Assembly (NCBI GenBank): GCA_946479285.1
Contig: CAMLFH010000010.1
Location: 1-64,000, forward strand
Origin: an uncultured Flavobacteriales bacterium
Lineage (GTDB): Bacteria; Bacteroidota; Bacteroidia; Flavobacteriales; Crocinitomicaceae
Direction: 5' to 3'
DNA: 64,000 nucleotides
Under the pieces are notes generated by a model. The model was not told where the DNA came from, did no database searches, and saw only the letters and a list, made by a program, of their open reading frames with translations. Both the position numbers and the translations under genes were made by a program. This document shows, piece after piece, positions 4,242 to 50,922 of the stretch (positions within the stretch are counted from its first letter, which is position 1; each line of letters begins with the position of its first letter).

Positions 4242-4859
4242 ATGAAAAAAATACCTGCATTCGTAATCGGACTTTCAGTAACAATCCTTTTCTCCTGCGG
4301 AGAATCAACCAGGGAAGAAGCCAAAAAATCCGTTGAAATGGATGAACCTCAAACGGAAGAACCGTCTAAAACAAAAACGGAACTTCCTGACGAAAAGTCA
4401 GAATACCTGATCGAGAACAAAGTGCTTCATGCTTTTTCAGATCCGTCTAAAAAAGATGAATTCCGCATCGTTGTAACTGGTAAAAGCCTGCTGAAAGGAA
4501 AAGTGATTTTCACTATCACCAATTCCGAGGGGAAAAACCTGCTCAAAGAAGAATTCGACGCAGATTACCTCCTGGGGTATGATTTCACCGGAGATATTCA
4601 TTCGCAAACCCAAACAGACGCCTTCATTACCAAACGCGTCAATCAATTTTTCTCCAAAGAGAAGTTCAGCGTTCCTGCTATGGAAGAAAATGTGGTTTTT
4701 GAAGACCAAAGCTATTACATCGACCAGGAAACGTGGGAAGAGATCAAGTCCGATAAAAAGGCTGTCGGGTTTTACTATTTATTGGGGAAAGAAGATGGAA
4801 GACACATTGCTTTTTCTAAGAAAAAAGGAAAAGTGGTGATGTTTTACAACTGCTGCTGA
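4242..4859 (+). CDS. putative lipoprotein of unknown function
   Basis: A 205-residue protein with a lipoprotein signal peptide: basic start, hydrophobic core (PAFVIGLSVTILF) and a lipobox ending in Cys19 (ILFSCGES). After the anchor comes a charged low-complexity linker rich in Glu, Lys and Thr (residues 20-50), then a compact domain with several beta strands and a C-terminal CC pair. It probably sits in the outer or inner membrane facing the periplasm. It is the third gene of a tight cluster with the GNAT and DUF1801 genes. I do not recognise a family. Confidence 0.72.
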   Translation: MKKIPAFVIGLSVTILFSCGESTREEAKKSVEMDEPQTEEPSKTKTELPDEKSEYLIENKVLHAFSDPSKKDEFRIVVTGKSLLKGKVIFTITNSEGKNLLKEEFDADYLLGYDFTGDIHSQTQTDAFITKRVNQFFSKEKFSVPAMEENVVFEDQSYYIDQETWEEIKSDKKAVGFYYLLGKEDGRHIAFSKKKGKVVMFYNCC

Positions 4860-35005: not shown

Positions 35006-35617
35006 ATGAAAATCATCTGCATAGGGCGTAATTACGCCGATCACGCGAAGGAATTGAATAATCCGCTTCCAACCGAGCCTGTTTTTTTTATGAAACCGGA
35101 TACGGCTTATTTGCCTGCGGGAACTGATTTTTACATTCCTGATTTTACCAAAGACCTGCATTATGAATGCGAAGTGGTGGTAAAAATTAAAAAAGTGGGA
35201 AAGAATATCCAGGAGAAATTCGCTTCCTCCTACTACGATGAAATCTCGTTAGGGATTGACTTCACAGCTCGTGACCTGCAGGAACAATGCAAAGCAAAAA
35301 GCCTTCCGTGGGAAAAAGCAAAAGCCTTCGACAACAGTGCACCGATGGGAGCGAAATTTATCCCGGTAAGTTCATTGGATCTGAATGACTTTCATTTCAC
35401 CCTAAAGAAAAACGGCACTGCAGTTCAAAACGGACATACAGCTGACATGATTTTTTCCATCGATAAAATCATCGCATACGTTTCGCAATTCGTAACCTTA
35501 AAAACAGGAGATTTGATCTTCACAGGAACACCAGCCGGAGTTGGTCCGGTAGCAATTGGTGATCACCTGGAAGGATTTATCGGGGAAGAGAAAATTTTGG
35601 ATTTGAAGATCAAATAA
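35006..35617 (+). CDS. fumarylacetoacetate hydrolase family protein (FAHD1-like)
   Basis: A 203-residue FAH-fold enzyme. It begins with 'IICIGRNYADHAKELNN', has 'PVFFMKPDTAYLPAG', the metal-site motif 'HYECEVVVKI' (His-x-x-x-Glu-x-Glu type), 'GIDFTARDLQ' and 'TGDLIFTGTPAGVGPV'. The short length without an N-terminal domain fits the FAHD1/acylpyruvase or oxaloacetate decarboxylase group rather than true fumarylacetoacetase. The substrate is not decided. It follows an unusual tandem repeat. Confidence 0.9.
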   Translation: MKIICIGRNYADHAKELNNPLPTEPVFFMKPDTAYLPAGTDFYIPDFTKDLHYECEVVVKIKKVGKNIQEKFASSYYDEISLGIDFTARDLQEQCKAKSLPWEKAKAFDNSAPMGAKFIPVSSLDLNDFHFTLKKNGTAVQNGHTADMIFSIDKIIAYVSQFVTLKTGDLIFTGTPAGVGPVAIGDHLEGFIGEEKILDLKIK

Positions 35618-37026: not shown

Positions 37027-37047
37027 GTAGTAAAATTACTAATTCCC

Positions 37048-37065
37048 TCCCGATAACTATCGGGA
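37048..37065. repeat. 18-bp palindrome TCCCGATAACTATCGGGA
   Basis: TCCCGATA and TATCGGGA flank AC. It differs by one base from the palindrome present in the three tRNA-derived units at 37760-37945 (GC centre). It lies 22 bp before the permease start, in a 209-bp gap that holds no gene I can support. Confidence 0.7.
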
Positions 37066-37235
37066 TACGAATTGCAAATTAAGTTTTCGAACTTCATTTC
37101 ACGGAGGAGCGCAGATCACCGATTCCTCTCTCCTATCCGGGATCTTATTTGGGAGCTACGCAATCCCCGCTGAGCAGGATTCGTAAAAGTATCAAGTAAA
37201 ACCCTTATTTTAACCTTTTAAAACTCAAATCACAC

Positions 37236-37688: not shown

Positions 37689-37759
37689 GTTTGGTGCTGA
37701 AAAAACTGATCTGTTGAATTCAGGAAGATGAAAAAATACTATCTTCGTTTGCAGATACT

Positions 37760-37945
37760 GCGCGCGTGGTGATCCCGATAGCTATCGGGATGGTAGACAT
37801 GCGAGAAATATAATAAATACTGCGCACGTGGTGATCCCGATAGCTATCGGGATGGTAGACATGCGAAGTAGAAAATAATAACTGCGCACGTGGTGATCCC
37901 GATAGCTATCGGGATGGTAGACATGCGAAGTAGAAAATAATAACT
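37760..37945. repeat. three tandem 62-bp units made of the tRNA-Leu 5' end with a palindrome in the D-loop
   Basis: Units start at 37760, 37822 and 37884, and the intact tRNA follows in the same register at 37946. Each begins GCGCACGTGGTGA as the tRNA does (unit 1 has GCGCGCG), then TCCCGATAGCTATCGGGA where the tRNA has AAT, then TGGTAGACATGC, after which tRNA similarity stops. An A-rich spacer completes the unit. Units 2 and 3 are identical over all 62 bases; unit 1 differs in the spacer. No unit can form a complete tRNA. Confidence 0.92.
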
Positions 37946-38030
37946 GCGCACGTGGTGAAATTGGTAGACATGCCATCTTGAGGGGGTGGTGCCATTAGGT
38001 GTGCTGGTTCGAATCCAGTCGTGCGCACCA
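37946..38030 (+). tRNA. tRNA-Leu, anticodon GAG
   Basis: An 85-nt tRNA with encoded CCA. Acceptor GCGCACG pairs with CGTGCGC, discriminator A. The D-arm is GTGAAATTGGTAGACAT; the anticodon stem CCATC/GGTGG encloses the loop TTGAGGG with anticodon GAG (reads CUC and CUU); then a class II variable arm and T-arm GCTGG-TTCGAAT-CCAGT. The long variable arm and the D-loop fit leucine. It is the only complete tRNA I find in the window, flanked by partial copies on both sides. Confidence 0.93.
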
Positions 38031-38037
38031 GAGAAAA

Positions 38038-38070
38038 AAGAGCAATTCGAGAGAGTTGCTCTTTTTTTTT
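38038..38070 (+). terminator. intrinsic terminator of tRNA-Leu
   Basis: AAGAGCAA (38038-38045) pairs with TTGCTCTT (38056-38063), followed by a long T-run to 38070. A degenerate copy of this hairpin follows the tRNA 3'-end copy at 39331-39357. Confidence 0.85.
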
Positions 38071-49572: not shown

Positions 49573-50922
49573 ATGAAACCATTTCTTTTTCTTCTTTTTA
49601 TTGTCCTTCCGGCATGTATCTTTTCGCAGGAAAATGCAACCGACAAAAAACCATTTGGGGATATTGATGCCACCTGGCAAAACGGTTCCGACCGCAGGGA
49701 TTCGGTTATTTGGAACACAAAATATTTCACTCCTTCTATCATGATCGATGTGAACTATAATTACGGGTTCAACAACCCAATTGACAACACAGTTATTGGC
49801 TCAACAGCTTTGGCCCGGAGTAATGAAATTCAGGTATCTTCTGTAAATCTTGGCGGCGACTTTGTCTATAAAAACGCACATGCCCGGATAATGACCCAAT
49901 TCGGTACCCGTTCCATCGTGGTTCCGCGAAATGACTACAGTGTTTATAAAGGACAGTATGAGCTGGCAAATGTGTACAGACACCTCAGTGAAGCCTATGC
50001 GGGTTATCACTTCAATAAATGGTATGGAATAAATGTGGACGCAGGTCTTTTCATGTCTTATATCGGTTTGAATTCGTATTACCAGTCGGAAAACTGGGAA
50101 TATCAGGCATCCTTTACATCCGATAATACTCCCTGGTTTTTTAATGGACTCCGTGTTCAGATCCATCCCACAAAACACCTGAAAATTGAACCGTGGATCA
50201 TTAATGGCTGGCAGAGCTATGGGAAATTCAATGCAATGCCCGGCTTTGGGGGGAATATCACCTGGATGCCGAATAGCCATTTAAAACTTCTGACCAATAA
50301 TTACTATGGAACCGATGTTGCAGGGATTCCCGATAGAAAACGTTTTCATTCGGATAACAGCTTACTGGTCAGGTATTACAATAAGCCACAAGCTAAAAGT
50401 ATTTCGCGAATGGCCTTCTCACTGACAGGCGATATCGGTTTTGAAAAAGGTGGAGGAGTCAATGGGTTTAAAGCTGATACGTCAGCTCCCAAACAATATT
50501 TTCTGAGTGCTATGTTTTATAACCGAATTTGGTTTGCAAAAAACAAAATGGCCTGGACAATCGGTGGTGGTGTGATGAGTAACCCCGGACGTTACCTTGT
50601 TTTGTATCCTACAGGTCAGGCAAGTCCGCTTCCTGATCCCCAAAACCCGACACAAACCGAAGGTGCATTTCCCTTTAGTGCCAATCCGGGAGATTTATTC
50701 AGTGGCTGGGACTGCTCCACAAATTTCGATTGGATGCCCAATCAAAGTATCACTATCCGGGTAGAATATGTTTACCGGCATTCAAGTATCCCCTATTTTG
50801 CAGGCAAGGGAGGTGTAACTTCTCCTTCCGGATATACTACAGCAACACTTGCCTCAGATTGGCGTCCCGATTTGGTGCGTTCAGAAAGTCGTATTATACT
50901 TGCCCTCTTATTTCGAATTTGA
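49573..50922 (+). CDS. outer membrane beta-barrel porin (Bbp2/OmpL-like)
   Basis: A 449-residue outer membrane protein with a signal peptide (MKPFLFLLFIVLPACIFSQ). The mature part alternates strands and turns throughout ('TPSIMIDVNYNYGFNNP', 'EAYAGYHFNKWYGINVDAGL', 'WIINGWQSYGKFNAMPGFGG', 'ITIRVEYVYRHSS') and ends in a strand 'RSESRIILALLFRI'. It fits the Bbp2 porin family. In Bacteroidota such a porin is typically encoded within kdp operons, which suits its position after kdpE. It may admit K+ or other cations. Confidence 0.85.
   Translation: MKPFLFLLFIVLPACIFSQENATDKKPFGDIDATWQNGSDRRDSVIWNTKYFTPSIMIDVNYNYGFNNPIDNTVIGSTALARSNEIQVSSVNLGGDFVYKNAHARIMTQFGTRSIVVPRNDYSVYKGQYELANVYRHLSEAYAGYHFNKWYGINVDAGLFMSYIGLNSYYQSENWEYQASFTSDNTPWFFNGLRVQIHPTKHLKIEPWIINGWQSYGKFNAMPGFGGNITWMPNSHLKLLTNNYYGTDVAGIPDRKRFHSDNSLLVRYYNKPQAKSISRMAFSLTGDIGFEKGGGVNGFKADTSAPKQYFLSAMFYNRIWFAKNKMAWTIGGGVMSNPGRYLVLYPTGQASPLPDPQNPTQTEGAFPFSANPGDLFSGWDCSTNFDWMPNQSITIRVEYVYRHSSIPYFAGKGGVTSPSGYTTATLASDWRPDLVRSESRIILALLFRI

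Follow-up and report, generated by a model that had tools for sequence, protein, structure and literature searches.

Short mobile palindromes of Bacteroidota probably replace the loops of hairpins, and hits on tRNA genes would survive only where an intact copy of the tRNA is kept, the palindrome-bearing partial copies multiplying afterwards; we give this reading a probability of about 0.6. The sequence rule itself is well supported for tRNA copies and has been demonstrated at one terminator. The window, i.e. the whole stretch of 64,000 nucleotides that was analyzed, carries three such partial copies in front of an intact tRNA-Leu(GAG) gene (Table 1). Each unit reads GCGCRCGTGGTGA + TCCCGATAGCTATCGGGA + TGGTAGACATGC, while its counterpart in the tRNA reads GCGCACGTGGTGA + AAT + TGGTAGACATGC, so that the 18-base palindrome TCCCGATAGCTATCGGGA stands where the tRNA has AAT in its D-loop. 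The unit starts are 62 bp apart, the last one lying 62 bp before the tRNA; likeness to the tRNA stops at about base 27 and is followed by a 19-nt A-rich spacer. Unit 3 repeats unit 2 exactly, and unit 1 differs from both by one base (GCGCGCG) and in its spacer. This is the structure reported in a preliminary description of the locus, which also noted the related lone palindrome upstream (TCCCGATAACTATCGGGA). The latter is bracketed by AATTC (37041-37045) and GAATT (37069-37073) and hence may sit at the tip of a short stem. With up to 3 mismatches allowed, the palindrome is matched 4 times in the window and never in 100 dinucleotide-preserving shuffles. A simple scan of the window for a terminator consensus returned 0 terminator-like sites, the inverted repeat behind the tRNA not being among its hits.

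Table 1. Features of the tRNA-Leu(GAG) locus and its surroundings, in positions of the window
Feature	Position	Strand	Description or basis
Unit 1	37760..37802	+	copy of tRNA-Leu nt 1-27, palindrome at 37773-37790 in place of the D-loop AAT
Unit 2	37822..37864	+	built like unit 1, palindrome at 37835-37852
Unit 3	37884..37926	+	same sequence as unit 2, palindrome at 37897-37914
A-rich spacers	37803..37821, 37865-37883, 37927-37945	+	19 nt, one after each unit
Intact tRNA-Leu(GAG)	37946..38030	+	ARAGORN; Rfam RF00005, 47.1 bits
TATCTTCG, relaxed TANNTTTG box	37740..37747	+	sequence and comparison with relatives
Solitary palindrome TCCCGATAACTATCGGGA	37048..37065	.	upstream of a permease gene
Inverted repeat with T-run	38034..38067	+	probable terminator of the tRNA transcript

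The nearest relatives by the tRNA locus are L009 (Fluviicola sp.), L014 (Flavobacteriales UBA7666) and L323 (genome G457). L323 has two units within a contig of 4.63 Mb (G457:C1) and other relatives have one or two, which makes an assembly slip an unlikely source of the array. Upstream of its tRNA L323 shows the end of an FAA hydrolase-like protein, and the window has an FAA hydrolase at 35006-35617 (comparison by eye and domain search). As the genome of L009 shares its family with that of L042 (Crocinitomix catalasitica), the window probably belongs to Crocinitomicaceae. The identity of units 2 and 3, together with the two-unit relative, supports the earlier suggestion that the fragment multiplied in register with the gene.

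The arrangement recurs. An exact-pattern scan (CCCGATNNNNATCGGG, 1-3 bases, GGTAGACA) of the GTDB species collection (84,980 genomes) found 80 matches at 68 loci; about 1 would be expected by chance if base composition were uniform. According to their record titles, 66 of the 68 loci belong to Bacteroidota or its subgroups, and most are partial copies of the local tRNA-Leu placed just upstream of the intact gene. One of the two exceptions, L066 from a Gammaproteobacteria MAG, has no tRNA near it and is probably a chance match; the other (L030) is titled Actinomyces viscosus, probably wrongly, since L268 (genome G500, from the same family as the genome of L009) has the same unit and tRNA. A tRNA on the same strand lies within the 700-nt search range of 71 matches (70 tRNA-Leu, with all five anticodons, and 1 tRNA-Gly); the remaining 9 have none, several of them being at contig ends. 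Three matches, one of them in L032 and two in L060, represent nearly complete tRNA-like sequences whose own D-loop holds the palindrome.

Natural pairs of empty and filled sites indicate how the units arise. L278 and its empty sisters L270 and L274 are closely alike in the leader, and L278 has 57 bp extra, exactly in the D-loop: the palindrome, GGTAGACATGC (copying the right flank), then GGAAATT, and finally a repeat of the leader end with tRNA nt 1-15 (the left flank). Palindrome and partial copy thus appear to arise together, the intact tRNA being the rebuilt one. L267 (empty) and L268 (two units) form a second, looser pair. For filler sequences such as the GGAAATT of L278 no source was identified.

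Hairpins other than the D-arm of tRNA-Leu are hit as well. The genome of L060 (G006, a Lentimicrobiaceae MAG) has six palindromes spaced by 112-113 bp downstream of tRNA-Asn, and those of its units that were read are copies of the 3' part of that tRNA and its terminator with the T-loop replaced by the palindrome. Further copies involve tRNA-Phe (anticodon loop) and tRNA-Val, tRNA-Lys and tRNA-Gln (D-loop). In the tRNA-Val and tRNA-Lys copies of L098 and L095 the anticodon stem is also replaced, by CCCGAT...ATCGGG arms with a short centre. Outside tRNAs, the terminator behind one gene of Robiginitalea marina (G004) reads ACCCCGG-palindrome-CCGGGGT, while its ortholog in G548 reads ACCCCGG-TAAT-CCGGGGT; the six other loci compared from the genus Robiginitalea have different short-loop terminators after the matching gene end. 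Replacement of a loop is therefore seen at one terminator (TAAT by the palindrome) and in D-, T- and anticodon loops of tRNAs, and presence and absence of a palindrome at one and the same site, as expected of short mobile palindromes, is seen both here and in L278 versus L270/L274.

An excess of hairpin tips is also visible statistically. In collecting sites, those less than 40 nt from the end of a locus and those that were repeated exactly had been set aside. After deduplication of 169 pooled non-tRNA sites 86 remained, and contiguous flanking stems of at least 5, 6 and 7 bp were found at 19, 13 and 8 of them (shuffle means 4.1, 1.2 and 0.39; none of 2000 shuffles reached the observed values). 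Among the 46 deduplicated sites from evenly drawn genomes the excess was weaker, with 6 versus 1.7 for at least 5 bp (reached by 13 of 2000 shuffles) and 4 versus 0.5 for at least 6 bp (2 of 2000), while stems of at least 7 bp showed no significant excess (1 site, 379 of 2000). Hairpin tips are over-represented among the sites, and most sites lack a strong stem: at 73 of the 86 no flanking stem reaches 6 bp, which means that loops are not the only targets. At 17 deduplicated tRNA sites the real flanks folded no better than shuffles (6.41 versus 6.82 pairs).

As expected of a short mobile palindrome, near-identical copies are dispersed over the genomes. Six genomes chosen for a tRNA unit contain 16, 47, 9, 33, 35 and 31 copies of CCCGATNNNNATCGGG, and a reversed-pattern control gave 0 in all genomes counted. 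Among 198 evenly drawn Bacteroidota genomes (including the genome of L009, on which the draw was centred) the exact 16-mer occurs in 19, with 1-30 copies each. Read inward, 142 of 172 flanks have T as their first base, which extends the palindrome to its 18-bp form; no sequence tag is evident in the flanks beyond this T. Only 5 of 79 sites in the evenly drawn genomes (3 loci) are clearly tRNA-linked, so we do not claim that tRNA genes are favoured over the rest of the intergenic sequence. Genome G485 contains 56 copies of a second palindrome, TCCGCCGCGGCGGA (0 for the reversed control); several of them stand in repeated contexts, and one occupies the D-loop of the partial tRNA-Leu copy L314 of that genome. 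The mobility attributed to the palindrome in the preliminary description is borne out by these dispersed copies and by the empty and filled tRNA sites.

We propose that TCCCGATAGCTATCGGGA is one of several mobile palindromes, which would swap a few loop bases and cap an existing stem. The target strand would be in its folded state at insertion, the most likely route being template switching or hairpin processing in replication; the order within the insert (palindrome, right-flank copy, short filler, left-flank copy) suggests two or three jumps of the nascent strand. In an essential single-copy tRNA gene only those events that leave one intact tRNA would survive, so D-loop hits would leave 5' partial copies upstream and T-loop hits 3' partial copies downstream. 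Later in-register duplication may turn such copies into arrays like that of the three 62-bp units, and the units would form a structured pre-tRNA leader that is probably transcribed, with any benefit to the host being hypothetical. A more specific version of this scheme, which we regard as possible but doubtful, postulates a dedicated bacterial activity that recognizes folded loops whatever their sequence and swaps in one of several palindromes, the tRNA flanks being copied and the intact tRNA rebuilt. If true, this would define a class of loop-directed mobile palindromes apart from REP/RAYT and integrase-driven elements.

The exact limits of the units bear on the question of a DNA or an RNA intermediate. 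They were determined for 72 units (merged from 74) with an intact neighbouring tRNA, selected on the palindrome plus GGTAGACA. In 62 of the 72 the unit and the local tRNA agree in their first nine bases; exact sharing upstream of tRNA base 1 ends within 0-4 nt in 47, and sharing past GGTAGACA ends within 0-5 nt in 68. Such limits, close to the mature 5' end and resembling a 5' tRNA fragment, are what would be expected if a palindromic RNA hairpin were joined into the loop of a cleaved RNA and the chimaera were reverse-transcribed and recombined beside the parent gene. The choice of targets (a terminator and tRNAs, i.e. arms of structured RNAs) agrees with this route, as does a somewhat higher frequency of RVT_1 proteins in palindrome carriers (12 of 19 versus 73 of 179 non-carriers, a weak association uncorrected for genome size). 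However, in L006, L038 and L052 the units share 17-40 or more leader bases with the tRNA as well, RVT_1 was not detected in 7 of the 19 carriers, and no cDNA signature was seen. We consider the RNA route unlikely and in our judgement favour the DNA route roughly two to one.

Another possibility, which follows the order of events put forward in the preliminary description, is that a tandem partial tRNA copy came first and was entered by a palindrome later, the insertion being favoured since a self-folding unit spares the real tRNA. The palindrome and GGTAGACA had served to select the unit-limit set, so partial copies were also sought without reference to the palindrome. In the Fluviicola family, to which the genomes of L009 (G001) and L042 (G003, Crocinitomix catalasitica) belong, an intact D-arm pattern matched in 120 of 150 genomes, and 90 of the 150-odd places were examined (30 from the search and 60 taken by place; 3 with less than 150 nt upstream). 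Partial 5' copies were found at 11 of these loci (10 genomes), which are not independent events, as some genomes are closely related and at least four of the loci (L268, L278, L284 and L306) look like loci of the scan. A twelfth locus, L342, was left out as a chance GGAAGACA match. All 11 copies have a palindromic D-loop insert: the standard one, variants in L293, L332 and L283 (one mismatch), one cut by Ns in L307 and, in L314, the different palindrome TCCGCCGCGGCGGA. Unit numbers and palindrome occupancy in relatives, the check proposed earlier, thus show units at 11 of 90 family loci, every one of them filled. Among 397 genomes of the family of Robiginitalea marina a single copy (L385) was recovered with a 5'-anchored pattern for one tRNA-Leu type, and its palindromic insert is degenerate. 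A phylum-wide search of 395 genomes, whose pattern does not cover the window's GAG type, turned up four partial copies: L130, which carries a further palindrome-like insert, and L127-L129, which are palindrome-free. The latter have a normal D-loop, are longer and reach the anticodon, and they show that partial copies can arise without a palindrome. L127 and L128 share a common copy of the tRNA-Leu 5' half, with a similar spacer, upstream of an intact tRNA-Leu.

Equilibrium folding, which ignores co-transcriptional folding, proteins and modification, provides the second argument for prior duplication. Over 51 parseable, partly related loci the acceptor stem forms with a mean probability of 0.84 when the tRNA is folded by itself, 0.22 when its real units are included and 0.07 when those units are given the native D-loop; the palindrome version yields the better value at 38 loci and the worse one at 13 (Wilcoxon p = 0.0006). 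In the window the respective values are 0.99, 0.96 and 0.37. The model suggests that the units compete for the 3' half of the tRNA in most of the 51 loci and hardly at all in the window. Nevertheless, with every family copy filled and no palindrome-free intermediate in the comparison of L278 with its two empty sisters, the claim that duplication preceded the palindrome is unsupported; since palindromes number tens per genome at most, chance hits on each rare partial copy would be unlikely, and we find this order of events improbable. As to the fold of the unit itself, the duplex energy of the post-D-arm sequence with the leader and acceptor strand is lower than when shuffled between loci (mean -5.48 versus -4.49, 0 of 300 as low). 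The sequence after GGTAGAC of the next copy (intact tRNA or next array unit) gives nearly the same value (-5.35, n = 48), so we do not claim that the whole unit forms one hairpin with the post-D-arm part as the reverse complement of leader plus acceptor strand.

It has also been considered that the units are kept because their hairpins regulate processing, stability or dosage of the tRNA. The motif TANNTTTG, which we take to be a promoter-like box of Bacteroidota, occurs upstream of the first unit, no more than 60 nt away, in 17 of 56 parseable loci (shuffle mean 2.4); the spacer adjoining the tRNA contains it in 1 of 56 (shuffle mean 1.4). A relaxed form is found in 21 of 56 upstream regions versus 4 of 56 spacers, counts that have no shuffle baseline, and the window has only the relaxed version, TATCTTCG; TATATTCG stands at a like place upstream of the units in L009, L314 and L323. 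With the box enriched upstream of the first unit, the units are probably part of a transcribed pre-tRNA leader, as had been surmised, and those of the window probably so if TATCTTCG acts as the box. The RNA of the window locus is also predicted to fold strongly (z = -8.45), an effect that would be due largely to the palindromes themselves. The absence of units from 79 of the 90 family loci and the variety of tRNAs, arms, palindromes and unit numbers (0 to 3) speak against maintenance for such a function, to which we attach little probability.

Less probable still is that the palindromes form a REP family whose movement depends on a REP-associated tyrosine transposase (RAYT). A short palindrome in dozens of copies would fit, and Y1_Tnp proteins are present in 16 of 19 palindrome carriers; but they are nearly as common in non-carriers (129 of 179), the Robiginitalea marina genome has 33 palindromes and no Y1_Tnp match, and neither the palindrome nor its 8-base half occurs at any of 14 Y1_Tnp loci (about 3.2-3.3 kb each). 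REP tags are defined as GTAG or CGTC, and association with a RAYT is a trait of the GTAG type, according to the accessible text of PMC3733652. Within 10 nt of the 86 deduplicated non-tRNA sites GTAG was found at 3 and CGTC at 4, i.e. the sites are not marked by REP tags, and the association with a Y1 transposase that the GTAG type would show is likewise absent from the 14 loci and from the R. marina genome. A RAYT as mover is supported neither by presence nor by proximity, and neither Y1_Tnp nor RVT_1 accounts for the movement of the palindromes. Least credible of all is the scar of an attachment site of a phage or integrative element, since, although tRNA genes are classic integration sites, phages and ICEs that target them have an integrase gene beside the tRNA and repeat its 3' end, whereas here it is the 5' end that recurs, in units of short period (62 bp in the window, 45 bp upward elsewhere), none of ten neighbouring window proteins has an integrase domain, and terminators and T-loops are hit likewise.

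Several known systems resemble parts of this behaviour. REP, BIME and REPIN sequences are also short hairpin-forming palindromes in tens of copies; unlike REP/RAYT systems, the palindromes described here have neither a GTAG/CGTC tag nor a link to a Y1 gene, lie in the loops of other hairpins and come with partial tRNA copies. Rickettsia palindromic elements (RPE) are likewise short palindromes at many places in a bacterial genome, and are set apart by being known mainly from insertion into protein genes. Some integrative elements rebuild the tRNA they enter, so that insertion leaves an intact tRNA as it does here, but they use a recombinase and usually affect the 3' end, while in our case a duplication of tens of bases restores the 5' end and no recombinase was found nearby. 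Mobile palindromes are known from mitochondria too, including those of Volvox. According to the accessible parts of PMC4478555 and PMC2800124, yeast GC clusters, sponge RHEs and the double-hairpin elements of Allomyces are lineage-specific and patchy, and RNA-mediated movement has been proposed for some of them. As far as those texts go, the likeness lies in short elements spread within a genome and patchy among relatives; the palindromes reported here differ (RHEs and double-hairpin elements being compared by description) in that they are bacterial, the same palindrome occurs in several orders of one phylum, a loop is replaced at an orthologous hairpin, and partial tRNA copies arise with the intact gene kept.

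Searches of the open-access literature, which leave subscription papers uncovered, found, among the papers listed, no account of this palindrome in hairpin loops or of palindrome-bearing partial tRNA copies, and the 16-mer CCCGATNNNNATCGGG is absent from the text of open-access papers among the matches listed. This is a real and recurrent behaviour of short mobile palindromes, undescribed as far as literature searches reach. It attaches an insertion rule (hairpin loops) to a palindrome that occurs across Bacteroidota, and it supplies natural empty/filled pairs, which together make the movement of tiny non-coding palindromes testable in cultured bacteria. It also accounts for arrays of broken tRNA 5' ends, which were missed here by the tRNA finder, and suggests a possible way in which an essential tRNA gene could take insertions without being lost.

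A few further occurrences deserve mention. Viral contigs contain no units of the GGTAGACA type and 37 stretches with the 18-mer; L148 (IMG/VR, a viral-class contig) has at position 4838 a tRNA-Met-like sequence of full length whose D-loop holds the palindrome. L213 (genome G200) has at 506 and 1068 a pair of tRNA-Leu-like sequences about 560 bp apart, without an ARAGORN call, with the palindrome in the region of the variable arm. A lone half-palindrome, CTATCGGGA, lies on the minus strand of the window at 50328-50336. In Robiginitalea marina many palindromes (L110-L122) stand mid-way in a dispersed repeat, TGTCATTTCGAAGGAG...GACTGAGAAATCTC.
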